Made by a program: the position numbers and the translations under genes. Below, one piece after another: positions 20,866 through 34,267 of a stretch of DNA of 39,624 nt; position 1 is the stretch's first letter, and each line of letters opens with the position of its first letter. The stretch covers positions 1 through 39,624 of the forward strand of contig NZ_QWBW01000018.1 in NCBI RefSeq assembly GCF_004117855.1. Direction: 5' to 3'. The notes beneath the pieces were generated by a model. The model was not told the origin of the DNA and made no database searches. It saw only the letters and a list, made by a program, of their open reading frames with translations. This DNA comes from Modicisalibacter coralii (GTDB taxonomy: Bacteria; Pseudomonadota; Gammaproteobacteria; Pseudomonadales; Halomonadaceae).

Positions 20866-22062
20866 GTGCCGGCCGTTTTCCGACACGCCGACCGGCGCCT
20901 CGTCGCCAACCGGGTCCTGGCGACCCTGCTGGTGGCGGCGGTCGCCGGCAGTCTCCTGCTGCCCTTCGCCGCCATGGCACCCAACCGGCTGGTCTCGGGC
21001 GAATCGGTGGCGCTCGTCGCCGCTCTGAGCCCCTGGCAGACGCTGGTGCTGCTCGGCCTGGCCCTGGTACTGGGCGTGGCCTGCCTGGCCCGCCCGCTGG
21101 GCGAGCACCGCGGCGCACGAACGGCGCTGATCGCCGCGCCACTGGCGCTGCTGGTGGTGCTCTACGGCCTCGGCGATTACGCCACTCGCGCCCTGGCCGA
21201 CGCCTCGCCCGCGGCGCGGGTCTCGCAGGGCGCGGCCTTCTGGGTGGCGGTATTCTGCTGTGCCTTGATGATGGTCGATGCCTTCCAGCGCCTGCGCACG
21301 CCGTTGTGGCTTTGCAGTATCTACGCCCTGGTGGTGCTCGGCGGTATCGTGGCGCTGTTCGCCGCCGGCACCTTCGATGCCCTGGCGATCATGCAGGAAT
21401 ACTTCAACATCGAGGACGCCTTCGCCGCCCAGTTCGTCACCCATCTGGTGCTGGTGGGCCTGGCGCTGGGTCCGGCGCTGGTCGTCGGCCTGCCGCTGGG
21501 GCTGCTGGCCCACCGTCGGCCCGGCGCGCGCGGACCGCTGTTCGGGGTGCTCAACTTCTTTCAGACGATTCCCTCGATCGCGCTGTTCGCGCTACTGGTC
21601 ACCCCACTCTCGCGGCTCGGCGACGCGCTGCCGTGGCTGCGCGAGTGGGGCGTGTCGGGGATCGGCGCGGCACCGGCGATCATCGCGCTGATCATGTACT
21701 CGCTGCTGCCGATCGTGCGCAACACTCACGCCGGGTTCGCCGGGGTCGCGCCGGCGACCCTCGAGGCGGCAAGCGGCATGGGCATGACCGCCACTCAGGT
21801 GCTGTGGCGGGTCGAGATTCCCCTGGCCCTGCCGGTGATCCTCTCGGGGTTGCGCATCGTCACCGTCCAGGCGATCGGCCTGACCGTGGTCGCCGCACTG
21901 ATCGGCGCCGGGGGGCTCGGCGCCTTCATCTTCCAGGGCCTCGGTCAGTACGCCATCGACCTGGTGCTGCTCGGCGCGGTGCCGACCATCGCCCTGGCGG
22001 TGGTCGCCGACTTCCTGCTGCAGATCCTGGTCACCGTCAGCCGCCCCGCCGGGGCCCGCTGA
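20866..22062 (+). CDS. yehY: Osmoprotectant ABC transporter, large permease
   Basis: A 398-residue inner-membrane permease. The first half has several extra helices absent from simple OpuBB-type permeases; the second half, from about residue 185, is the transport domain with QFVTHLVLVGLALGPALVVGLPLG, NFFQTIPSIALFALL and the ATPase-contact loop EAASGMGMTATQVLWRVEIPLALP. This layout is that of E. coli YehY. It starts with GTG at 20866, only six bases after the osmF stop, so translational coupling is likely. It is followed by the ATPase gene after 23 bases. The transporter imports osmoprotectant with low affinity in E. coli; the role here is inferred. Confidence 0.88.
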   Translation: MPAVFRHADRRLVANRVLATLLVAAVAGSLLLPFAAMAPNRLVSGESVALVAALSPWQTLVLLGLALVLGVACLARPLGEHRGARTALIAAPLALLVVLYGLGDYATRALADASPAARVSQGAAFWVAVFCCALMMVDAFQRLRTPLWLCSIYALVVLGGIVALFAAGTFDALAIMQEYFNIEDAFAAQFVTHLVLVGLALGPALVVGLPLGLLAHRRPGARGPLFGVLNFFQTIPSIALFALLVTPLSRLGDALPWLREWGVSGIGAAPAIIALIMYSLLPIVRNTHAGFAGVAPATLEAASGMGMTATQVLWRVEIPLALPVILSGLRIVTVQAIGLTVVAALIGAGGLGAFIFQGLGQYAIDLVLLGAVPTIALAVVADFLLQILVTVSRPAGAR

Positions 22063-22085
22063 GCCGCCCCACCGAGAGACGAGGA

Positions 22086-23138
22086 ATGATCGAACTACAG
22101 GGCTTGACCAAGACCTACGACGACAAGGACGTCGTCCAGGACATCTCGCTGCGTATCGAGAGCGGCGAGTTCGGCGTGCTGATCGGCCCCTCCGGCTGCG
22201 GCAAGTCGACCACGCTGCGCATGATCAACCGGCTGATCCCGCTGACCCGCGGGCGCATCCTGCTGGGCGACGAGGACATCAGCCATCTCAAGCCGGAGAC
22301 GCTGCGCCGGCGTATCGGCTATGCCATCCAGTCGATCGGCCTGTTTCCGCACTGGACGGTGGCCGACAACATCGCCGTGGTCCCCCGGCTGCTCAAGTGG
22401 CCGAAATCTCGCATCGATGCCCGCATCGACGAGTTGCTGGATCTGTTTCACCTCGCGGCCGGCGAGTTCCGCGACAAGTACCCGCACCAGCTCTCCGGCG
22501 GCCAGGCACAGCGCGTCGGCGTGGCACGGGCGCTCGCCGCCGATCCCGAGGTCCTGCTGATGGACGAGCCGTTCGGCGCCGTCGACCCGCTGACCCGCGA
22601 GGTGCTGCAGAACGAGATGCGCCGCGTCCACGAGCGGACCCGCAAGACTATCGTCTTCGTCACCCACGACATGGACGAGGCGCTCAAGCTGGCCTCGCGC
22701 ATCGCGATTCTCAACGCCGGTCGCCTGGTCCAGTACGACCGCCCCATCGAGCTGCTGACCCAGCCGGCCGACGCCTTCGTCAGCGACTTCATCGGCAAGG
22801 CCGACCTGGGCCTCAAGCTGCTCTCGCGGCGCTGGGTGAACCAGTACCAGGATCGTGCCCGCACCACGCCCGACGCGGCCTCCGGGCGGCCTTCCCACTA
22901 CTGGGAGACCGACGCCACGGGCCGCCCCACCTGTCTGCATGGCGGCCGGCTCAGCGACGGCGATCCCGAGGCGCGCACCGCGGTCAACGACGAGTGGATC
23001 GCCACCCCGGGGATGCCCATGAAGGAAGCCCTCTCGCGAATGGTCTGGTATCGGGTGATGGTGCTGCCGGTCATCGACGAGAGCGGTCGGCTGATCGGCG
23101 AGGTGAGCATGGACGGCGTGATGGGCCGCCAGCCATGA
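22086..23138 (+). CDS. yehX: Osmoprotectant ABC transporter, ATP-binding subunit
   Basis: A 350-residue ABC ATPase. Walker A GPSGCGKST is at 34-42, the Q-loop in IQSIGLFPHW, signature LSGGQAQRV at 136-144, Walker B VLLMDE at 156-161 and the switch His in VTHDMDEA. The C-terminal 110 residues include a CBS-like half (MKEALSRMVWYRVMVLPVIDESGRLIGEV); in OpuA-type ATPases CBS modules sense ionic strength, but only one CBS unit is clear here. The ATG at 22086 follows GAGG closely. The last codon overlaps the start of the small permease gene (ATGA), so the two are translationally coupled. Confidence 0.92.
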   Translation: MIELQGLTKTYDDKDVVQDISLRIESGEFGVLIGPSGCGKSTTLRMINRLIPLTRGRILLGDEDISHLKPETLRRRIGYAIQSIGLFPHWTVADNIAVVPRLLKWPKSRIDARIDELLDLFHLAAGEFRDKYPHQLSGGQAQRVGVARALAADPEVLLMDEPFGAVDPLTREVLQNEMRRVHERTRKTIVFVTHDMDEALKLASRIAILNAGRLVQYDRPIELLTQPADAFVSDFIGKADLGLKLLSRRWVNQYQDRARTTPDAASGRPSHYWETDATGRPTCLHGGRLSDGDPEARTAVNDEWIATPGMPMKEALSRMVWYRVMVLPVIDESGRLIGEVSMDGVMGRQP

Positions 23139-23878
23139 AGCGGAACCTTCCCCACGGGCGCGATGCCCTGCTGCTCGTCCTCGGCGTGGCGCTGATTCTG
23201 CTGGTGCTGTTCATGGACGCGCTAGCGCCGCTGTTCCGCGCGGCCTTTCCGCAGCTCGACACCGCCGTCTACGCCCGCGAGAGCTTCCTCAAGCTCACCC
23301 TCGACCACCTGGCCCTGGTGCTGGTGTCGTCGCTGATCTCGGTGAGCGTGGGCGTCGCCGCCGGGCTGTTCGTCACCCGCCGCGCGGGGCGCGAATTCGA
23401 ACCACTGGTCTCGGCGCTGGCGGCGATCGGCCAGACCTTCCCGCCCGCGGCGGTACTGGCGATCGTCGTCCCGCTGGCCGGTTTCGGCTTCGTGCCGACC
23501 ATCGTCGCGCTGACGCTCTACGGCCTGCTGCCGGTGGTCCAGAACACCATCGCCGGACTGGGCACGGTGCCGACCGACACCCTGGAGGCGGCCCGCGGCA
23601 CCGGCATGAGCGCCACGCAGATCCTCTGGCGGGTGGAACTGCCGCTGGCGATGCGGGTGATCATCGCCGGCGTGCGCGTTTCGGTGATCATCAATATCGG
23701 TACCGCGACCATCGGCTCGACGGTCGGCGCCCAGAGCCTGGGCACGCCGATCATCGCCGGGCTGGTCGGCGACAACATCGCCTACGTGATTCAGGGGGCG
23801 GTTCTGGTGGGGCTGCTGGCGATCGTCAGCGATCTGCTCTTCGAACGGCTGGAGCGCCGTTATCGCTTCGGTAGCTAG
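23135..23878 (+). CDS. yehW: Osmoprotectant ABC transporter, small permease
   Basis: A 247-residue inner-membrane permease with about six helices. The transport domain has LTLDHLALVLVSSLISVSVGVAAGLFVTRRAG, AIGQTFPPAAVLAIVVPLAGFG and the ATPase-contact loop EAARGTGMSATQILWRVELPLAM, which closely parallels that of YehY, so the two permeases probably form a heterodimer on a YehX dimer. The start overlaps the yehX stop by ATGA. It is the last gene of the operon; a short GC-rich hairpin follows 41 bp after the stop. Confidence 0.9.
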   Translation: MKRNLPHGRDALLLVLGVALILLVLFMDALAPLFRAAFPQLDTAVYARESFLKLTLDHLALVLVSSLISVSVGVAAGLFVTRRAGREFEPLVSALAAIGQTFPPAAVLAIVVPLAGFGFVPTIVALTLYGLLPVVQNTIAGLGTVPTDTLEAARGTGMSATQILWRVELPLAMRVIIAGVRVSVIINIGTATIGSTVGAQSLGTPIIAGLVGDNIAYVIQGAVLVGLLAIVSDLLFERLERRYRFGS

Positions 23879-24240: not shown

Positions 24241-24369
24241 TCACTGACCGGCGGCCTCCTCGATTTCCGAACCCACCTTCTGCACGTCCCGGCCGAAACC
24301 GTGCATGGTGTTGCAGCCCGCGAGAAAGACCAGCGCCGCCAGTGCGGCCAGCAGTAGGGTCTTGCGCAT
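24241..24369 (-). CDS. ecnA: Entericidin-like lipoprotein (copy 2)
   Basis: A 42-residue lipoprotein precursor starting MRKTLLLAAL, lipobox LAGC (Cys19), and mature part CNTMHGFGRDVQKVGSEIEEA. The mature start CNTMHG is identical to copy 1, and the remainder has the same heptad-like charged helix pattern. The ATG at 24369 follows AGGAG; an upstream Met (24426) is rejected because it puts 19 polar residues before the signal peptide. It lies 69 bp downstream of the TauE/SafE gene on the same strand. Which copy corresponds to EcnA or EcnB cannot be decided from sequence alone. Confidence 0.85.
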   Translation of the reverse strand: MRKTLLLAALAALVFLAGCNTMHGFGRDVQKVGSEIEEAAGQ

Positions 24370-24438
24370 GTTCGTCTCCTGAATGACACACTCCGCCTTG
24401 TTATCGCCGATCGCCGCGTCGCGCACAAGCGGTGTCGC

Positions 24439-25185
24439 TTAGAAGAAGACCAGCCGCAGGATAATGGCCACGATCACCACCAGCGTCAGCGCCTTGACCC
24501 ACTTGGCGCCGCGCGGCCCCATGTTGACGCGCACCGCCAGCCAGGCGCCGCTCATGCTGCCCACCGCCAGCAGCAGACCGTAGGCCCAGCGCACCTGGCC
24601 GTCGAGGAGGAACACCGCCAGCGCCGGCAGCGTATAGACCAGCACCACGAACACCTTGAAGACGTTGACCTGGGCCAGGTCGATCCTGAGCATCCGGTAG
24701 AGGACGGCGATGAACAGCACGCCCACCCCCACCTGGATGAAACCGCCATAGACCCCGATCGCGAACATCGCCAGATAGACCGCCGGGGTCAGTCGTTCCG
24801 GCGTCAGCGCCCGCGTATCGAGCCGCGGCTGCGGCAGCAGCATCATCACCGAGGCCGCGACCATGGCGACCACCAGCACCGTCTGGAACACCGCGTCCGG
24901 CACCTGCAGCGCCAGCCAGGCGCCGGCCAGGGACCCCAGCACCGCCGGCACCGACAGACGCAGGCTGATGCCCAGGTCGCGGGCCCCGGCACGGAAGAAG
25001 TTGCCCACCGCACTGACGCTCTGCAGGACGATGCTCACCCGATTGGTACCGTTGGCCGCCTGTGGCGGCAGGCCCAGGAACATCAGCAGCGGCAGGGTCA
25101 GCATCGAGCCCCCCGCCGCCAGCACGTTGATGAAACCGGCGACGCCGCCGATCGCCACCAGCGCCAGCCCTTCCAGCCAGGTCAT
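24439..25185 (-). CDS. TauE/SafE-family anion exporter
   Basis: A 248-residue inner-membrane protein with about eight helices. The repeated family motifs are GFINVLAAGGSMLTLPLLMFLGLPPQAANGTNRV in the first half and GVYGGFIQVGVGVLFIAVLYRMLRIDLAQVNVFKV in the second. TauE/SafE proteins export sulfite, sulfoacetate or related organosulfonates. It starts 27 bp after the TRAP permease stop with AGGAG upstream, so it probably belongs to the TAXI-TRAP operon. If so, the imported compound may be a sulfonate or another acid whose degradation releases an anion to export. This link is inference. Confidence 0.87.
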   Translation of the reverse strand: MTWLEGLALVAIGGVAGFINVLAAGGSMLTLPLLMFLGLPPQAANGTNRVSIVLQSVSAVGNFFRAGARDLGISLRLSVPAVLGSLAGAWLALQVPDAVFQTVLVVAMVAASVMMLLPQPRLDTRALTPERLTPAVYLAMFAIGVYGGFIQVGVGVLFIAVLYRMLRIDLAQVNVFKVFVVLVYTLPALAVFLLDGQVRWAYGLLLAVGSMSGAWLAVRVNMGPRGAKWVKALTLVVIVAIILRLVFF

Positions 25186-25212
25186 CGCGACTCCTTTCGA
25201 GGCCGTCCATGG

Positions 25213-27336
25213 TCACGCCGGAACGCCGCGCCCCCGCCGTGCGCTCCATACGAGCACCGCGACGAAGATCGCCACCCCGACCAGATCGACGGCGAGCATA
25301 CCATGCGGCCAGAGCATCAGGGCGCCGATCGGGAACATCAGCAGGCGCAGCCACCAGGACAGCTCATGCTCCAGATAGCCCTCGAGGCCGGCGATGATCG
25401 CGTAGATGCCGAACAGCGCCAGGGCGAACACCTGCAGCATCTCCTCGGGGGTGCCGGTGATCAGCGGCGACCAGACGAACAGCAGCGGCACGATGTAGAG
25501 CCCCTTGGCGATCTTCCAGGCGGTCAGCCCGGTGCGCATCTGCGGCGTCTCGGCGATCGCCGCCGCGGCGAAGGCGGTCAGGCACACCGGCGGGGTGACG
25601 TTGGAGTCCTGCGACAGCCAGAAGATCACCATGTGCGCGGCGACCAGCGACATGGTCAAGAAGTGCGGCGACAGCGCCTGCTCGTAGAGCTGGCTGGAGA
25701 AGGTATCGGGCACCTTGTCGAGCAGCGCCTTGGCATCGGCCGGACTCATCGGCGCCGACAGCGCCTGCAGTTGATCGGGGGCGGCGAGCATGAAGATCGA
25801 CTTGGCCTGCTGCGGCAGGTCGCCGGCGACGATCAGATCGACCAGTTGGGCATGCGCCATCAGGTTGTAGAGCGCCGGCGCCGAGAGCGTCGCCAGCACG
25901 ATGTACGAGGCGGTGACCGGCAGCCCCATGCCCAGGATCAGCGAGGCGATGGCGACCAGCACGATGGTCACCAGCAGGCTGCCGCCCGCCCAGTCGGTGA
26001 TCATCAGCGAGAAGGTGTTGCCGATGCCGGTGGTCGAGACCACGTTGACGATCAGCCCCACGGTGATCAGCAGGATCGCCGTGGTGATCATGTTGCGGGT
26101 GCCCTGGACCAGCGCCTCGACGATCAGCCTCGGGGTCATCGGCTGCTTGGACAGCCAGGAAGCGACGACCACCGAGACGATGGCGATGCCCGCCGCATAG
26201 GTCGGCGTGAAGCCGTAGATCAGCGCCCACACCAGCACGATCAGCGGCAGCAGATAGTGCCAGCCGTTCTTGAGCACCGTGCCGATCTTCGGCGCGTCGG
26301 GGTCGTCGAGCTGCTGGGCGTTGCTGCGCTTGGCCTCGATGCGCACGAACATCGCCACCGACAGGAAATAGAGCAGCGCCGGCAGCGCGGCGACGCCGAT
26401 GATGGTCAGATACGACACCTGAGTGTAGGAGGCCATGATGAAGGCCCCGGCGCCCATCACCGGCGGCATCAGTTGCCCGCCGGTGGACGCCGACGCCTCG
26501 ACGCCCGCGGCGAAGCGCGCCGGGAAGCCGGCCTTGCGCATCAGCGGGATGGTGATCACCCCGGTCGACACGGTGTTGGCCACCGCCGAGCCCGATACCG
26601 AGCCCATCAGCCCCGAGGAGAACACCGCCACGAACCCCGGGCCGCCGATGAAGCGCCCGGCCGCGCAGCGGGCCAGCTCGATGATGAACTCCCCGGCGCC
26701 GGACTTGACCAGGAAGGCGCCGAAGAGGATGAACATGAACACGTACGACCAGGAGATGCGGGCGATCGAGCCCAGCATGCCCTCGCCGCCGATGTAGCTG
26801 CGAAACAGCACCGTCTCCCAGCTCAGGCCGGGAAAGTTGAACACCCCGCCGACGTACTTGCCCCACCAGGCCACGTAGGTCAGCGCGATCAGGCACAGCA
26901 CCGGGATGAACCAGCCGGTGGTACGCCGGGCGAACTCGAGGATCAGCCCCACGGCGAGAATCGACACCACCCAGTCGCTGGTGACGAAGGTCACGCCCCG
27001 GTCGTAGAGGGCATCCTCGAAGGCCATCAGGTACAGCGCGCAGCCGATCGCGGCGACCGCCAGCAGCACGTCGACGGCGAAGATCGCGCGGCGGGCGCCG
27101 GCCTGACGCGGCCGGGCCAATGGCACCGACAGCGCGCACAGCGCGCCGAACAGGCCGAAGTGCATGGCGCTGGTCCACAGCGTGGAGAGCGTCGAGAAGG
27201 TATTGAAGTACAGATGCACCAGGGCGATGAGGATGGCGAAGGCGAACAGGAAGCGCCCCAGCCAGGGGTGCTGGAGGCGTTCGTCGGCCTCCTGGGCATC
27301 CTCGTCGCGGATCGAATCGAGTGTTGGGTCGCTCAC
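25213..27336 (-). CDS. TRAP transporter fused permease (TAXI type, DctQ-DctM fusion)
   Basis: A 707-residue inner-membrane protein. Residues 30-170 are a four-helix small-subunit-like part; the rest is the large DctM-like domain with GSVSGSAVANTVSTGVITIPLMRKAGF, GGQLMPPVMGAGAFIMASYTQVSYL and ILGMGLPVTASYIVLA, signatures of the 4TM/12TM fusions that serve TAXI binding proteins. It would import the ligand using a Na+ or H+ gradient. The start is GTG at 27336 with GGAG six bases upstream; the longer frame to 27402 would run through a hairpin and is rejected. The binding-protein gene lies 135 bp upstream, separated by two strong stem-loops. Confidence 0.93.
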   Translation of the reverse strand: MSDPTLDSIRDEDAQEADERLQHPWLGRFLFAFAILIALVHLYFNTFSTLSTLWTSAMHFGLFGALCALSVPLARPRQAGARRAIFAVDVLLAVAAIGCALYLMAFEDALYDRGVTFVTSDWVVSILAVGLILEFARRTTGWFIPVLCLIALTYVAWWGKYVGGVFNFPGLSWETVLFRSYIGGEGMLGSIARISWSYVFMFILFGAFLVKSGAGEFIIELARCAAGRFIGGPGFVAVFSSGLMGSVSGSAVANTVSTGVITIPLMRKAGFPARFAAGVEASASTGGQLMPPVMGAGAFIMASYTQVSYLTIIGVAALPALLYFLSVAMFVRIEAKRSNAQQLDDPDAPKIGTVLKNGWHYLLPLIVLVWALIYGFTPTYAAGIAIVSVVVASWLSKQPMTPRLIVEALVQGTRNMITTAILLITVGLIVNVVSTTGIGNTFSLMITDWAGGSLLVTIVLVAIASLILGMGLPVTASYIVLATLSAPALYNLMAHAQLVDLIVAGDLPQQAKSIFMLAAPDQLQALSAPMSPADAKALLDKVPDTFSSQLYEQALSPHFLTMSLVAAHMVIFWLSQDSNVTPPVCLTAFAAAAIAETPQMRTGLTAWKIAKGLYIVPLLFVWSPLITGTPEEMLQVFALALFGIYAIIAGLEGYLEHELSWWLRLLMFPIGALMLWPHGMLAVDLVGVAIFVAVLVWSARRGRGVPA

Positions 27337-27382
27337 GGCGATCTCCTGAAGAGCGGCGTGCGTCAGATCATGACAGGGGAAG

Positions 27383-27413
27383 CGAAAGGCGCCACGAGCC
27401 ATGGCGCCTTTCG
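27383..27413 (-). promoter_or_regulatory. Intercistronic stem-loop 1 in the TAXI-TRAP operon
   Basis: CGAAAGGCGCCA (27383-27394) pairs perfectly with TGGCGCCTTTCG (27402-27413) around a seven-base loop. On the minus-strand transcript it lies just before the permease gene. With only CTTCCCC after it, it is a poor terminator; partial termination or mRNA protection of the binding-protein message are both possible. Confidence 0.55.
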
Positions 27414-27416
27414 GCG

Positions 27417-27456
27417 GAGGTACCTTTCCGGCCAGGTTGACCGGGAAGGTAACCTC
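27417..27456 (-). promoter_or_regulatory. Intercistronic stem-loop 2 in the TAXI-TRAP operon
   Basis: GAGGTACCTTTCCGG (27417-27431) pairs with CCGGGAAGGTAACCTC (27441-27456) with one bulge and one mismatch. It starts 16 bp after the binding-protein stop and is directly followed by stem-loop 1. Such 3' structures after binding-protein genes commonly keep that message more abundant than the permease message. Confidence 0.5.
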
Positions 27457-27471
27457 GTGACGTACCGGTGC

Positions 27472-28506
27472 TTATTCGGCGCCGTCCGCTTTCGGCATCA
27501 GCCGATCGGGGATCTCGATGCCCTGCTCCTCGAAGTAGCGGGCCGCGCCGGGATGCAGCGGCATCGGCAGGCCGGCGATCGCCTTCTCGATGGCCATCGC
27601 CTTGGTCGCCGGGTGGATGTTCTGCAGAAACGGCAGGTTCTCGTACATGGTCTTGGTGATCGCGTAGACGTCGTCGGCCGGGACGTCGGCGCGCACCGCC
27701 AGGATGTTGGGCTGGGCGATGGTATGGATCACCTCGTCCTGATTGGGATAGGTGCCCGCCGGAATGTCATAGGGCGTCCACAGCTCGAACTCGCTGTTGA
27801 CCTTCGCGAGCTGCTCGGCATTGAAGTCGAGCGTGGTGATGTCGCCGCCGACGTTGGCGTAGGCGCGGGTCACCGCCGAGGCCGGCACCCCGGCGGGGAT
27901 GTTCATGCCCTGGATGGTGCCGTTCTGCAGGGCGTCGGCGCTCGGCCCGTAACCCAGATAGGCGATGTCCATCTTGTCCGGCTCGATGCCCAGTTGGCCG
28001 AGAATGTAGCGGCCCGAACCCTCGGTGCCCGAGTTGCGCGCGCCGATCGAGAACGCCTTGCCGTAAAGGTTGGTCATGTCGTCGATGGTGCCGGAGTCGA
28101 CGATCGCGTCCTTGACCACGAAGTGCTCGACGTTCTGCCACAGCATCGACACGCTGCGCAGGTTCTTGTAGGCCTTGGGTACCGGCCCGGTGCCCTTCCA
28201 GGCATAGGCGCCGTAGAGCCCCTGCAGGATGCCGAACTGCGCCTCGTCGGCATCCATCAGCTTGAGGTTCTCGCCGGAACCGGCGGAACTGATCGCCGAG
28301 ACCGAGATCCCGGTCTTGGGCTCGAGCTTGACCTTGACCAGCGTCGACAGCGCCACCCCCACCGGGTAGTAGGTGCCGCCGGTGGTGGCGGTGCCCATGA
28401 TGTAGTGGTGTGACCCGTCCTGGGCCAGGGCGGAAGAGGCCGAGACGCCCAGCGCCGCGGCGGTGGCCAGGCCGATGGCCGACTTGAGGAACTGACGCTT
28501 GTGCAT
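27472..28506 (-). CDS. TAXI-family TRAP transporter substrate-binding protein
   Basis: A 344-residue periplasmic protein. The signal peptide (residues 1-28, cleavage near ALA-QDG) begins MHKRQFLKSA, close to a Tat-type motif but with Lys-Arg, so Sec or Tat export is open. The TAXI signature follows: YIMGTATTGGTYYPVGVALSTLV, SSAGSGENLKLM, FSIGARNSGTEGSG and PAGVPASAVTRAYA. TAXI proteins bind acidic compounds such as glutamate or 2-oxoglutarate; the ligand here is unknown. The ATG at 28506 follows AAGGAGAAA. A sigma54 promoter and three dyads lie upstream, implying regulated, activator-dependent expression. Confidence 0.94.
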   Translation of the reverse strand: MHKRQFLKSAIGLATAAALGVSASSALAQDGSHHYIMGTATTGGTYYPVGVALSTLVKVKLEPKTGISVSAISSAGSGENLKLMDADEAQFGILQGLYGAYAWKGTGPVPKAYKNLRSVSMLWQNVEHFVVKDAIVDSGTIDDMTNLYGKAFSIGARNSGTEGSGRYILGQLGIEPDKMDIAYLGYGPSADALQNGTIQGMNIPAGVPASAVTRAYANVGGDITTLDFNAEQLAKVNSEFELWTPYDIPAGTYPNQDEVIHTIAQPNILAVRADVPADDVYAITKTMYENLPFLQNIHPATKAMAIEKAIAGLPMPLHPGAARYFEEQGIEIPDRLMPKADGAE

Positions 28507-28559
28507 GCCGTTTCTCCTTGTGGGAATTGGCGGTTATTGTGGTGAGGCCCACAAGACGT

Positions 28560-28576
28560 AGCAAAGCCCTTGCCAG
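28560..28576 (-). promoter_or_regulatory. Sigma54 (-24/-12) promoter of the TAXI-TRAP operon
   Basis: CTGGCAAGGGCTTTGCT on the minus strand fits the sigma54 consensus YTGGCAC-N5-TTGCW except for one base. The invariant GG (28574-28573) and GC (28562-28561) have exactly ten bases between them. Transcription would start near 28549, giving a leader of about 43 bases with AAGGAG before the ATG at 28506. Sigma54 promoters need an AAA+ activator, consistent with the upstream dyads. Confidence 0.75.
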
Positions 28577-28592
28577 TTGGCGAAAATGCTTT

Positions 28593-28612
28593 TCCGACAA
28601 TTACTTGCCGAT
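28593..28612. promoter_or_regulatory. Dyad 1 upstream of the sigma54 promoter (weaker copy)
   Basis: TCCGAC-N8-GCCGAT, matching the other two dyads in length and in one perfect half-site; the other half-site differs at two bases (TCCGAC for ATCGGC). The centre is about 54 bp upstream of the predicted start of transcription. Confidence 0.45.
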
Positions 28613-28637
28613 CTCGCCGCAGCAACTCGCCCCCGCT

Positions 28638-28657
28638 ATCGGCAGAAAATGGCCGAT
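28638..28657. promoter_or_regulatory. Dyad 2 upstream of the sigma54 promoter
   Basis: ATCGGC-AGAAAATG-GCCGAT, a perfect inverted repeat with 6-bp arms and an 8-bp A+T-rich spacer. The arms extend by three more bases with one mismatch. The centre is about 98 bp upstream of the predicted transcription start, the usual place for a sigma54 activator site. Confidence 0.65.
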
Positions 28658-28670
28658 GGCGAGCCCAGCG

Positions 28671-28690
28671 ATCGGCCAATTCTTGCCGAT
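28671..28690. promoter_or_regulatory. Dyad 3 upstream of the sigma54 promoter
   Basis: ATCGGC-CAATTCTT-GCCGAT, a second perfect copy of the same dyad, 33 bp from dyad 2. The centre is about 131 bp upstream of the predicted transcription start. Confidence 0.65.
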
Positions 28691-28708
28691 CCTCGTGCCG
28701 CCACGGCC

Positions 28709-28859
28709 CCTCAGAGGGGGTCTACAAATTCGTCGAGCGAAGGCAAGACAAGGCAAAATCGGATGAAAAAGCGGAGTTTACATGGGCTAAATGAGCATTT
28801 TGAGGCCGATTTTAACGCTGTATTGCCGAGCGCAGGCATTTTGTAAACTCCCTCTCAGG
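28709..28859 (-). repeat. Intergenic palindromic repeat, copy C (inverted orientation)
   Basis: On the minus strand it reads GCGCTCGGCAATACAGCG, TTAAAATCGG, CAAAATGCTCATTTA, a TTTA/TAAA centre, CTCCGCTTTTTC and TTTTGCCTTGTCTTGCC, in the same order as copies A and B. The outer 20 bases at 28709-28728 and 28840-28859 are inverted copies at 17 positions. It reaches to within 10 bp of the HIT gene start and so contributes its leader and ribosome-binding site surroundings. Confidence 0.75.
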
Positions 28860-28869
28860 AGACACCGCC

Positions 28870-29292
28870 ATGACCGACTTCTCCCTGCACCAGCGCCTCG
28901 CCGCCGACACCCACTTGATGGTCGACCTGCCGCTGTGTCAGGTCCGGCTGATGGACGACATGCGTTTCGCCTGGCTGATTCTGGTGCCGCGTCGCGACGC
29001 CGTCGTCGAAGTCGACGACCTGAGCGAGGCCGAGCAGGACCGGCTGTGGCACGAGGCCACCCGGCTGGGCGCGGCGCTCAAGGCCGAACTCGATGGTGAC
29101 AAGCTCAATCTGGCGACACTCGGCAACCAGGTGGCGCAGCTGCACTTCCACGTGATCGTGCGGCGCCGTGACGATGCCGCCTGGCCCGGCCCGGTATGGG
29201 GGGTAGGCACGCCCGAGCCCTACCCGGCCCGGGCGGTGGAGGCGTGGCGGGCACGCATCGAACGTCTCGCCGCGCCGCTGATGGCGGGTTGA
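28870..29292 (+). CDS. HIT-family hydrolase
   Basis: A 140-residue protein of the histidine triad superfamily. LATLGNQVAQLHFHVIVRRRDD carries the triad region as Q-x-H-x-H-V/I, in which the first His of HxHxH is Gln; WPGPVWGVG is the usual C-terminal mark of this proteobacterial HIT subgroup. HIT proteins cleave or transfer nucleotides linked to phosphate or other groups; the substrate here is not known. The ATG at 28870 follows AGGAGA. Immediately upstream lies palindromic repeat C, and the divergent TAXI-TRAP operon is beyond that. Confidence 0.9.
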   Translation: MTDFSLHQRLAADTHLMVDLPLCQVRLMDDMRFAWLILVPRRDAVVEVDDLSEAEQDRLWHEATRLGAALKAELDGDKLNLATLGNQVAQLHFHVIVRRRDDAAWPGPVWGVGTPEPYPARAVEAWRARIERLAAPLMAG

Positions 29293-29298
29293 GGGAAA

Positions 29299-29449
29299 TC
29301 AGGCGCCGGGCGGCAACCCCTGCTTGGCGAGCACCGCCTCGACGGCCTCCGCGATATCGCCACTCCCTCGTCGAGATCAGTGGCATGTGGCGCGCGAAAC
29401 CACCCGAGTCGACGAGCCACGGGGTGCCGAGCCCGGCGCGAGGTGGGGT
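29299..29449 (-). pseudogene. Possible C-terminal remnant of an unidentified gene
   Basis: The minus strand can be read as TPWLVDSGGFARHMPLIS in one frame and, after a shift near 29370, as GSGDIAEAVEAVLAKQGLPP up to a stop at 29299-29301. Both pieces look protein-like, have the codon usage of the region, and fill an otherwise empty 157-bp gap. I cannot name a family, and a chance reading is possible. Confidence 0.22.
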
Positions 29450-30910
29450 TCAGCGGCCGGGAACGCCGCCCACGCAGTAGTACTTGGTCTCGAGATATTC
29501 CTGCATGCCGGCATCGGCGCCCTCGCGCCCCAGCCCCGACTGCTTGACGCCGCCGAACGGCACCTGGGGGCCGGTGATGTCCATGGTATTGATACCGACC
29601 ATGCCGACCTCCAGCCGGCGCATGAACTTGCGGATGCGCGCGTCGCGATGGGTATAGACGTAGGCGGCGAGGCCGAAGAGGGTATCGTTGGCGGCCGCGA
29701 TCACCGCATCGTCGTCATCGAAGGCGCAGATCGGCGCCACCGGCGCGAACGACTCCTCGCCGGCCACGCGCATCTCGGCGGTGAAGTCGGCGACCACGGT
29801 GGGCATGAAGAAGCGCGGCCCCGGCGCCTCGCGCTGGTCGCGACCGAGGATTCGCGCGCCCTTGTCGCGGGCCTCGTCGACCAGCGAGCGGGCCTTGTCG
29901 ACGGCGTCGCGGTTGATCAGCGGGCCGATGGCGTTGTTCTCGTCGAAGCCGTTGCCTACCGCCATGGCGTTCATGCGCGCGGTGAAGCGCTCGACGAAGT
30001 CCTCATACAGCGAGCGGTGCACGTAGAGCCGATTGGCCGCCACACAGTCCTGGCCGCTGGTCTGGAACTTGGCGGCGATGGCGCCCTCGACTGCCTCGTC
30101 GAGGTCGGCATCGTCACAGACGATGAACGGCGCGTTGCCGCCGAGCTCCATGGCATTGCGCTTGACCGTGTCGGCGCTCTGGCGCAACAGCGAACGCCCC
30201 ACCTGGGTGGAGCCCGTGAACGACAGCGCCCGGACCCGGTCGTCGGCGCAGACCCGCTCGGCGAAACGCTTGCCGCTGCCGGTGACCACGTTGAACTCGC
30301 CGCGTGTGAAGCCGGCGCGCTCGGCGAGCACGGCCAGCGCCAGCGCCGAGAACGGCGTCTGGGTCGCGGGGTTGACCAGCGTCGTGCAGCCCGCCGCCAG
30401 GGCGGCACCGACCTTGCGGGTGATCATCGCCAGGGGGAAGTTCCAGGGGGTGATCACCGCGGCGACCCCGACCGGCTCCTGCACGGTACCCAGCGAGACA
30501 TCGGGCTTGTCGGCGGGAATCGTCTCGCCGTCGGCACGGCGTGCCTGCTCGGCGAACCAGCGCAGGAAGCTGGCCGCGTAGTCGACTTCACCGCGCGCCT
30601 CGGCCAGCGGCTTGCCCTGCTCCCAGGTCATCAGCCGCGCCAGCGCCTCGCGATGCTCGGTCATGCCTCGATACCAGGCGAGCAGCCTGTCGGCGCGTTC
30701 CAGCGCCGAGGTGTCGCGCCATTCGGCGAAGGCGCCCAGCGCGGCGTCGATCGCCGAGTCGATGTTCGCCGCCGACAGGTCGGGCACCTGGCCGATTGTC
30801 TGCTCGGTGGCCGGGTCGTCGACCGCCTGACGCGCGTCATCGTCGGCGGTGATCCAGTCACCGCCGACGAAGGCGCGTTCACGCAGCAAGGTCTTGGGAT
30901 CATTCGTCAT
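29450..30910 (-). CDS. gabD: NAD(P)-dependent aldehyde dehydrogenase, succinate-semialdehyde type
   Basis: A 486-residue cytosolic dehydrogenase closest in pattern to GabD (succinate semialdehyde to succinate). Present are TPWNFP (N157), MELGGNAP (E255), GQDCVAANR (nucleophile C289), and the closing PFGGVKQSGLGREG. Unusually, the cofactor-binding Lys of VLKPASQTP is replaced: LVNPATQTP has Asn180, and GQDC stands for GQTC. The start at 30910 follows GGAGG with seven-base spacing; the longer frame from 30961 is rejected. No GABA transaminase is adjacent, so the substrate is uncertain and the symbol reflects similarity only. Confidence 0.85.
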   Translation of the reverse strand: MTNDPKTLLRERAFVGGDWITADDDARQAVDDPATEQTIGQVPDLSAANIDSAIDAALGAFAEWRDTSALERADRLLAWYRGMTEHREALARLMTWEQGKPLAEARGEVDYAASFLRWFAEQARRADGETIPADKPDVSLGTVQEPVGVAAVITPWNFPLAMITRKVGAALAAGCTTLVNPATQTPFSALALAVLAERAGFTRGEFNVVTGSGKRFAERVCADDRVRALSFTGSTQVGRSLLRQSADTVKRNAMELGGNAPFIVCDDADLDEAVEGAIAAKFQTSGQDCVAANRLYVHRSLYEDFVERFTARMNAMAVGNGFDENNAIGPLINRDAVDKARSLVDEARDKGARILGRDQREAPGPRFFMPTVVADFTAEMRVAGEESFAPVAPICAFDDDDAVIAAANDTLFGLAAYVYTHRDARIRKFMRRLEVGMVGINTMDITGPQVPFGGVKQSGLGREGADAGMQEYLETKYYCVGGVPGR

Positions 30911-31060
30911 TGCCGTTCCTCCCTGAAGCCAATGAAAAGTGCCATCGGCGGGGGCCGGCATGCCGGAACCAGCAAGGTGTGAGCACAGGATCCATCGAGG
31001 ATCGGCGATGAGCTATCCCTGGTCGCCCGGCATCGCCCCTCGTCGTGGCGAGGTACCCGG

Positions 31061-31089
31061 AGTATAGGTGCCGCCGCCAGGACCCCCAA
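31061..31089 (-). promoter_or_regulatory. Possible sigma70 promoter of the aldehyde dehydrogenase gene
   Basis: On the minus strand TTGGGG (31089-31084) and TATACT (31066-31061) are 17 bases apart. The -10 matches five of six positions, the -35 only three. It would give a leader of about 140 bases, within which lies a 12-bp palindrome, CCGGCATGCCGG (30955-30966). Confidence 0.35.
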
Positions 31090-31100
31090 ACCGGCGTTTT

Positions 31101-32452
<1,352 letters not shown>

Positions 32453-32456
<4 letters not shown>

Positions 32457-34267
32457 GTCAGGGATTCCTCGCGGTCCCGCCGGGCCGGCACCTGGCGAGC
32501 CCGGGGCAGTTCGACGCTGAACGCCGCCCCGCCGCCGAGCGACGCGGGGCGATTCTCGGCACGGATGCGGCCCTCGAGATCCTGAACGATGCCGAAGGCG
32601 ATGAACAGCCCCAGCCCCAGGCCGTCGCCGACCGCCTTGGTGGTGAAGAAGGGATCGAACAGGTGCTCGAGCACGTCCTCGTCGATGCCCGGTCCGTTGT
32701 CGGCGATTTCCAGGGTCACCCGGCTCTCGCCTTGCGACACGCTCACCGTCAGGCGCGGCGCCTCGATCTCGCGCAACGCATCGAGGGCATTGCGCAACAG
32801 ATTGGTCAGCAGTTGCTCGACGCGCACCGTATCACCGGCGACGAGCAGGCTTCCGGCAGCGGCGTGCTCGGGCAGTTGCACGTCCAGCGCCACGCCCTGA
32901 CGCGCCAGGCGCTCCTCGAGCAGGTCGAGGACGAAATCGAGCCGCGCGGCCAGGTCGACCGGCTCGCGCGCGCCGCCCTTGCGAGCGAACAGCTTGAGCT
33001 GGCGAATCAGGGTGGCGAGTCGCTCGGAGAGCCCCTGGATGCGCCGGAAATTGTCGCTCGCCGCCTCATCCCGGCCCCGTTCGAGCAACCGCGCCCCGCT
33101 CGCCGCGTAGGTGCGGATGCCGGCCAGCGGCTGGTTGAGTTCGTGGGCGATGCCCGCCGCCATGGTGCCCAGCGCCGCCAGCTTGCCGGCCTGGACCAGC
33201 TCGGCCTGGGCCGATTCCAGCTCGCGGGTACGCGCCGCGACACGGCTCTCCAGGCGCTCGTTGGCCTCGCGCATGATCCGCGCCTCGCGCTCGCGCAGCC
33301 ACAACCGCTGCTGGCGCTCGCGCAACCACAGGCCCAGCAGCAGCAGGGCCAGGCACACCGCCCCGGCGAGCAGCACCGCGTTGCGGGCACTCACGTAGAG
33401 CGGACGCACCGGCACCAGGTAATGCATCCGCCAGCCCAGGGTGTCGAGCGCCCTGGCGGTGGTGAAGAAGCGCTCGCCGAGCGCCCCCGACTCGACCCAC
33501 AGCGAGCCGTCGTTCAAGCGCTCGCCCAGCGGGGCGAGCGCGGCCCCCTGAAACTGACGCTGGGCGCGCACCTCACCGAGCGCCGCCGCATCCAGCCGGC
33601 CCAGACGGCGAAAGCGCCACTCGGGACGACTGGACAGGATCACCACACCGTTGGCATCGGTGAGCAGCACCTTCTCCCCGGCCTCGCGCCAGTCGGCCTG
33701 CAGCGACTCCAGCGACACCTTGATCGCCAGCACGCCGCCGATCGTGGCATCCTCCGCCGAGGCCGTGCGCACCGGCGCCGAGACGAAATAGCCGGGCCGC
33801 CCGGTGGTGCTGCCGACGGCGAAGAACTCCCCCTGACCGCCCTCGATGGCGGCGCGAAAGTAGGGCCGGTACTCGTAGCGATGGCCGATGAAGCTGGCCG
33901 GCGTGGCATGGTTGCTGGCCGCCAGGGTCAGCCCCCGGCGGTCCATCAGGTAGATCGCCTCGGCCCCCGAACGCTCGGCGACCCGCTCGAGATGGCGGTT
34001 GACCCGGCGAATCACCGCGGGGCGATCCGCCAGGGCGCCGCGCACCAGCGGCTGGCGGGCGAGCAGGTCGGGCAGATAGGTGAACCGTTCCAGCGCCCCG
34101 TCGAGACTGCTGGTGTAGAGCGCCAGGCGCGCCTCGGCGTGGCGCCGCGACTCGCGCAGGGCATTGTCGAACTGCCAGTGCCACACCCACCACAACACGG
34201 CGGCGATCAGGACGGCGCCCGAGGCGATCAGCAGACGGCGCAGGCGCCGACGGCGTATCGGCCCCAC
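32453..34267 (-). CDS. dctB: Sensor histidine kinase, DctB type
   Basis: A 604-residue membrane kinase. A helix at residues 12-32 and another at 297-315 border a periplasmic double-Cache/PDC sensor (landmarks YLMDRRGLTLAASN, SFIGHRYEYRPYF, GYFVSAPV), as in DctB. Then come a coiled linker, the H-box AAGIAHELNQPL (H375), N-box LLRNALDAL, and G-boxes DNGPGID and GDGLGLGL. It would sense an extracellular ligand, classically C4-dicarboxylates, and phosphorylate DctD. The GTG start at 34267 abuts the stop of the upstream lipoprotein gene, and the stop overlaps dctD, so all four genes of this cluster are translationally linked. Confidence 0.92.

Follow-up and report, generated by a model that had tools for sequence, protein, structure and literature searches.

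How is the operon of a TAXI-type TRAP transporter controlled, and which regulator would control it? Transporters of this type are widespread and, to our knowledge, few of them have a known substrate. The window, by which we mean the whole stretch of 39,624 nucleotides of DNA of the salt-loving bacterium Modicisalibacter coralii that was analysed, contains such an operon on its minus strand. A preliminary description of this DNA had placed before the binding-protein gene a sigma54 promoter and, upstream of it, three matching dyads of the form ATCGGC-N8-GCCGAT. In the open-licence PubMed Central literature we found nothing on the regulation of TAXI-TRAP systems, sigma54 dependence included, and the terms 'two-component' and 'histidine kinase' are absent from the accessible part of the VcGluP paper (term search).

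The features of the locus are collected in Table 1. The transporter belongs to the TAXI type, since both the binding-protein model TIGR02122 and the permease model TIGR02123 are matched above their cut-offs. A TauE/SafE-family gene adjoins the permease gene in many TAXI loci, those of Marinobacter included. The signal peptide of the binding protein (28420-28506) begins with MHKRQFLK, which resembles a Tat motif with lysine-arginine, and KRQFLK is found in the consensus of 22 relatives. Further along, at 20866-23878, an osmoprotectant-type ABC transporter seems to be encoded (permease, ATPase and second permease, by eye).

Table 1. Features of the TAXI locus and of its putative control region (dyad centres are reckoned from the predicted +1 at 28549; ranks are those of a dyad matrix over the window)
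Feature	Position	Strand	Remarks
TauE/SafE-family membrane protein	24439..25185	-	PF01925; likely the last gene of the operon
Fused TRAP permease	25213..27402	-	TIGR02123, E 1.2e-201
TAXI-type TRAP solute-binding protein	27472..28506	-	TIGR02122, E 5.1e-91; first gene of the putatively controlled operon
Predicted sigma54 -24/-12 promoter TGGCAAGGGCTTTGCT	28560..28575	-	11/12 consensus, GG-N10-GC; predicted +1 at about 28549
Third, degenerate dyad ATCGGCAAGTAATTGTCGGA	28593..28612	-	Centre -53.5; 3/12 mismatches; rank 3/39,605; lineage-specific
Place of the relatives' IHF-like site	28595..28607	-	Degenerate in the window; best match has 3 mismatches
Second putative enhancer dyad ATCGGCCATTTTCTGCCGAT	28638..28657	-	Centre -98.5; perfect; rank 2/39,605; conserved
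Distal putative enhancer dyad ATCGGCAAGAATTGGCCGAT	28671..28690	-	Centre -131.5; perfect; rank 1/39,605; conserved
Possible weak fourth dyad ATCGGCCTCAAAATGCTCAT	28791..28810	-	Centre -251.5; rank 4/39,605
Divergent HIT-family gene	from 28870	+	Other flank of the promoter region; TAXI start at 28506
Aldehyde dehydrogenase (succinate-semialdehyde dehydrogenase-like)	29450..30961	-	Between the regulator and TAXI genes
NtrC-type response regulator, proposed activator	31101..32456	-	Receiver, AAA+ with GAFTGA, Fis-type HTH (LPRRTLNQKM); Pfam, motifs, tree
DctB-like sensor histidine kinase	32453..34267	-	dCache_1, HisKA, HATPase_c; overlaps the regulator gene by 4 bases

The minus strand before the binding-protein gene reads CTGGCAAGGGCTTTGCT, and the 16-mer TGGCAAGGGCTTTGCT within it occupies 28575 to 28560. 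Its GG (28574-28573) and its GC (28562-28561) have ten bases between them, as the preliminary description had stated, and 11 of the 12 fixed positions agree with the sigma54 consensus TGGCACG-N4-TTGCW as it is printed in PMC4482717. The genome contains one gene for sigma54 (rpoN; PF04552, E 1.6e-67, at G000:C38). Consensus and geometry, the sigma54 gene and putative activator sites upstream are all present.

The upstream sites are not of equal quality. The computed dyad centres of -53.5, -98.5 and -131.5 reproduce the positions of about -54, -98 and -131 given earlier. ATCGGCAAGAATTGGCCGAT and ATCGGCCATTTTCTGCCGAT have 0 mismatches to ATCGGC-N8-GCCGAT and are 33 bp apart, which is about three helical turns. 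The GC-rich window abounds in places that match this pattern with up to 3 mismatches (107 found against 40.5 expected), so that the third dyad is not significant by that pattern alone. We built a matrix from 43 dyad sites of 23 other loci, the window being left out, and its four best places among 39,605 positions of the window are those at 28671 (score 31.2), 28638 (27.2), 28593 (12.4) and 28791 (8.4). The fourth sits in the same intergenic region as the other dyads and has a half-site type, ATGAGC, that is used in Vibrio loci. In the columns of the third dyad, none of the 21 scorable relatives (of 23) was positive by the matrix. Their ranks suggest that the third and fourth dyads may be weak genuine sites gained in the lineage of the window. 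The claim of three matching dyads thus holds for the two distal ones, which are perfect and conserved; as an equal partner and a conserved element the third was rejected, and it is retained as a weak site particular to this lineage. Single dyads are no rarity in this GC-rich genome, in which 447 sites have at most 1 mismatch, against 172 in the control; the perfect dyad occurs at 8 places and the form RTCGGC-NNNWWNNK-GCCGAY at 4 distinct ones, two of which belong to this locus.

The regulator encoded at the locus has the parts expected of an NtrC-type enhancer-binding protein, namely a receiver with its phospho-aspartate, Walker A and Walker B motifs, GAFTGA and a Fis-type HTH. It is encoded with a DctB-like dCache kinase, as in the DctB/DctD two-component systems, and the sensor domain of this kinase matches the DctB structures 2zbb, 3e4o and 3by9 (E 8.4e-38). 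The genome's own DctD-like regulator, 54% identical to the protein of 31101-32456, is encoded separately beside its own kinase. A branch with 99/95 support separates 38 TAXI-linked rows from 25 others, including the own DctD-like protein, in a tree into which no named DctD was entered. The recognition helix reads RRTLNQKM in 40 rows of the TAXI type, which lie outside Cobetia and include a few duplicates between fetches, and RKTLY[DR]K or RKNLYLR in the DctD-like rows. Walker A, Walker B and the arginine fingers are intact in all of these 40 rows, and GAFTGA is exact in 34; it is replaced by GAFTHA in four Marinobacterium (L088, L091, L093 and L096, with the remaining AAA+ motifs intact and the -24/-12 element kept) and by GAFTSA in two Marinomonas. 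Because all six variants keep a -24/-12 element before the TAXI gene, a one-residue change in this loop does not go with the loss of the promoter. The activator is most likely the regulator of 31101-32456, a paralogue distinct from the own DctD-like protein.

We used TAXI loci of other organisms to examine whether promoter, dyads and regulator occur together. The set comprised the best 80 of 394 TAXI loci from named genomes plus the window, and was split by the helix RRTLN.KM encoded at the locus into 37 loci with the regulator, 2 of Cobetia and 42 without it, the last group being made up of 36 Marinobacter loci together with those of Parendozoicomonas, Photobacterium, two Vibrio and two Marinomonas. 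Among these best 80 of 394, the loci closest to the window are those of Modicisalibacter tunisiensis and Halomonadaceae bacterium T82-2 (92%). Relatives of both kinase and regulator lie at most 9 kb from the TAXI gene in Halomonadaceae, Nitrincola, Marinobacterium, Neptuniibacter and Motiliproteus, and relatives of the regulator are also near TAXI genes in several Vibrio or Photobacterium loci. At the 36 Marinobacter loci, of which L037, L046 and L069 cover less than 2.3 kb upstream, no relatives of kinase or regulator were seen save for weak matches at L056 (28-35%). A regulator orthologue was likewise not found in the 8 of the 36 Marinobacter genomes that were searched whole, in which the best matches reach at most 51% identity; the seven of these best matches that were fetched are of the RKTLYDKM type.

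The control elements follow the same division. A -24/-12 match (at least 9/12, GG-N10-GC) is present in 37/37 regulator-bearing loci, 64-143 bp before the aligned start codon, in 0/2 of Cobetia and in 3/42 of the loci without the regulator, where shuffled 450-bp regions give 0.117 per locus (with regulator) and 0.122 (without); all 24 Halomonadaceae loci, window included, have it. Dyads with at most 2 mismatches were found in 33/37, 2/2 and 2/42 loci of the three groups, respectively (shuffles, 7-9% per locus), and the other four regulator-bearing loci (L088, L091, L095 and L102) have dyads built of the variant half-sites ATAGGC, ATAAGC or ATGAGC. These counts cover related genomes, which are not independent, and are not to be read as probabilities. 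In the aligned regions of 24 Halomonadaceae, dyad arms are 91% conserved against 48% for the rest of the stretch, and in most loci neighbouring dyads are 32-34 bp apart. Taken together, -24/-12 element and dyads are kept before TAXI orthologues in Halomonadaceae, Nitrincola, Marinobacterium, Neptuniibacter, Motiliproteus, several Vibrionaceae and Marinomonas, and they track the NtrC-type regulator, which supports the earlier suggestion that the dyads are sites of a sigma54 activator. The preliminary description had named missing conservation in close relatives as a ground for rejection, and this was not observed.

The two loci without the regulator that have both elements are those of Marinomonas (L103, L104), and dyads and promoter with no adjacent regulator predict a regulator elsewhere in the genome. 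Such regulators were found at other loci (L183, L184) beside a kinase; they have the helix RRTLNQKM and fall with the TAXI-linked rows at the main split of the tree. This kinase-regulator pair adjoins membrane transporter-like and flavodoxin-like genes (by eye). At L074, a 9/12 match to the -24/-12 element occurs with neither regulator nor dyad.

A search of whole genomes of the family shows how specific the arrangement is. Of 275 family genomes, 25 contain paired dyads (33-bp spacing, no more than 1 mismatch over the whole pair), once in each, and all 25 sites precede a TAXI gene; the reversed control gave 0. Orthologues of the regulator (E at most 1e-150) were found in 35/275 genomes, including all 25 with the pair, and among the other 240 genomes there is no pair. 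The strict 33-bp pair is missing from the remaining 10 of the 35; in the 6 of these that were inspected, the dyads are spaced by 32 bp, the partner dyad is degenerate or a single dyad is intact. When 3 mismatches are tolerated, the pair appears in 85/201 genomes, mostly at other places, and also to some extent in the reversed control, so that the loosened pattern loses its meaning. One family genome (G085) has a relative of the regulator at 59% identity and no paired dyads.

Outside the TAXI locus, W-centred dyads occur at 18 places in 14 genomes of the genus. As candidates for a wider regulon they were set aside, since the 10 of the 18 that were checked lie inside ORFs of at least 187 aa, weak evidence in a GC-rich genome; a small regulon beyond the TAXI operon may exist. 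Other TAXI genes differ in their upstream regions. The second TAXI gene of one genome (L023 of G011) has a 10/12 match to the -24/-12 element at -109 without these dyads, and is perhaps under another enhancer-binding protein, while the TAXI genes at L014, L020, L021 and L024 have neither -24/-12 element nor dyad. Two loci from other families or genera (L018, L019; 60-64%) have both elements, the dyads with 1-3 mismatches, and a regulator with RRTLN.KM was not seen in the 8.6 kb examined of the genome of L019.

From these comparative results we consider it very probable that the promoter of the TAXI operon is sigma54-dependent and is served by a remote array of activator sites, and that the neighbouring regulator, bound to the dyads, activates sigma54-RNA polymerase. 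The wiring appears to be kept in many relatives and to be missing where the regulator is absent or is without its sigma54 motor. It could be argued that the -24/-12 promoter is real and that the dyads are bound by some other enhancer-binding protein, for example the own DctD-like paralogue, given that several NtrC-type regulators are present in the genome, the nearest of them 54% identical to the neighbouring one, and that, according to the accessible part of PMC7962211, a DctP-type TRAP operon is driven by DctD in Pseudomonas. We regard this as improbable. Marinobacter keeps RKTLYDKM-type regulators, as the best matches from seven genomes attest, and yet its TAXI genes are without dyads or a convincing -24/-12 element; two named Cobetia keep a GAFTGA-bearing DctD-like protein (L192, L193) and have nonetheless lost the -24/-12 element of the TAXI gene; and paired dyads are confined to genomes with the TAXI-linked regulator.

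The proposed activation by the neighbouring regulator can be followed further in Cobetia, for which six genomes of the family set were compared (L040, L048 and L208-L213, where G108 is L040 and G019 is L048). In all six, the receiver and the HTH (RRTLNLKM) of the regulator are intact and the AAA+ domain is degenerate: Walker A has lost its lysine and reads GExGSGR, neither GAFTGA nor the aspartate of Walker B is left, and LTRTLGHAL or a similar string stands in place of the arginine-finger segment FREDLYYRL. A GAFTGA hit in L211/L048 (one genome) was discarded as a stray FTGA from a loose pattern, the aligned loop being different. A -24/-12 element of at least 9/12 was not found within 500 bp in any of the six genomes. 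All six keep a conserved block [CT]CAGTGTGACC followed by a dyad, with 2-3 mismatches and the right arm TGCCACT, and two more conserved blocks downstream of it, in which no -35/-10 could be assigned. If the ancestral promoter depended on sigma54, a loss of both motor and -24/-12 element is to be expected. We lean towards the view that in Cobetia the operon is still controlled by the former sigma54 activator, which has become independent of sigma54, regulator and promoter having changed class jointly. The accessible part of PMC10274813 describes NtrC-family regulators that have no GAFTGA and act at sigma70 promoters without the sigma54 contact, namely the NtrC of Rhodobacter capsulatus and Caulobacter, and VspR, and these would be a model for the Cobetia protein. 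The Cobetia protein differs from them in that several of its AAA+ motifs are degenerate and its target is also without a -24/-12 element.

The same comparison bears on the idea that the dyads serve as operators for an unrelated repressor or activator of the sigma70 type and that the -24/-12 match arose by chance, as a match of at least 9/12 with GG-N10-GC does in 10-12% of shuffled 450-bp regions. This is very improbable in view of its presence in every regulator-bearing locus and its absence from the six Cobetia, whose regulator lost the sigma54 motor; moreover, no sigma70-like promoter was found in 24300-31200. A reading of the dyads as hairpins of a transcript or as structural repeats of the DNA, rather than as protein sites, is scarcely credible: they are inverted repeats, and one weak terminator-like match overlaps the second dyad (4 such matches in 6.9 kb against 2.4 expected), but they lie upstream of the predicted start with their regular spacing, Rfam gave no family match for them, and the 10 of 18 W-centred dyads checked elsewhere in the genus are inside ORFs.

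Activation of a sigma54 promoter by the neighbouring regulator would proceed as follows. The DctB-like kinase (32453-34267) would detect a small periplasmic acid and phosphorylate the NtrC-type regulator (31101-32456), which would then bind the dyads at -131 and -98 and build an AAA+ ring there. The ring would reach sigma54-RNA polymerase at the -24/-12 element through DNA looping, and ATP hydrolysis would open the promoter, so that the genes for the TAXI binding protein, the permease and TauE would be transcribed. The consensus of IHF is YAA-N4-TTGATW, and an IHF-like site with at most 1 mismatch lies between dyads and promoter in 16/24 Halomonadaceae loci (shuffle rate 0.066), a perfect one in 7/24 (shuffle rate 0.003); outside Halomonadaceae such a site with at most 1 mismatch is found in 12/15 loci, but shuffles there give 0.196. 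In many relatives this site would aid the loop. In the window the corresponding place overlaps the third dyad (28593..28612); the IHF-like site has decayed here, and the weak third dyad lies in its place.

We infer that the signal and the cargo are likely a small dicarboxylate or acidic amino acid. The model of the binding protein has a mean pLDDT of 85.6, and among solved structures 9ibp (VCA0144 of Vibrio cholerae; 63-64% identity) is the nearest to it. VcGluP (8s4j) is only distantly related, with 25-26% identity. Of its ligand residues given in the accessible part of PMC11574862, Tyr45, Gln93 and Glu125 are matched in the window protein, and Tyr200 and Met201 are without a counterpart (alignment by eye); by this partial match, an acidic amino acid or a C5 dicarboxylate is plausible as the ligand of the binding protein. 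The aldehyde dehydrogenase gene was also considered. Its product scores 588 bits with TIGR01780, under the cut-off of 646, and matches of 90-91% identity occur only at L025 and L026 among the best 80 of 394 TAXI loci. This dehydrogenase, specific to the sub-lineage, may point to a substrate pathway.

Several known systems resemble the one proposed here. DctB-DctD with sigma54 on dctA and dctPQM of Rhizobium and Pseudomonas, as far as the accessible parts of PMC7962211 and PMC4482717 describe it, has in common with our locus a dCache kinase, an NtrC-type regulator, sigma54 and a transporter for small acids. Our locus differs in its transporter, which is of the TAXI subfamily, in the helix RRTLNQKM in place of RKTLYDKM, and in a branch of the tree apart from the own DctD-like protein. 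AauS-AauR with sigma54 on aatJ-aatQMP, for acidic amino acids in Pseudomonas, likewise has two upstream sites, a -12/-24 promoter and a binding-protein transporter; the aat system is not a TRAP system, however, and the AauR site given in the same part of PMC7962211 is TTCGG-N4-CCGAA, compared with RTCGGC-N8-GCCGAY here. The dyads of the window do not fit the AauR site, having eight bases between ATCGGC and GCCGAT (by eye). MifS-MifR with sigma54 on PA5530, for alpha-ketoglutarate, is also a DctBD-like pair, specific for C5-dicarboxylates and with a sigma54-type promoter, whereas PA5530 is a single-protein symporter and the accessible part of PMC4482717 describes no such dyads.

Our analysis connects one TAXI clade, whose orthologues extend to Vibrio, with a defined two-component system, a putative sigma54 promoter and a putative operator of 20 bp, and the link of this clade to a two-component system would offer a direct route to its inducer. 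If the change of class proposed for Cobetia is true, its locus is a natural experiment in which a promoter changes its sigma factor and keeps its regulator, and the change would serve as a natural test of the consequences that loss of the sigma54 motor has for an enhancer-binding protein.
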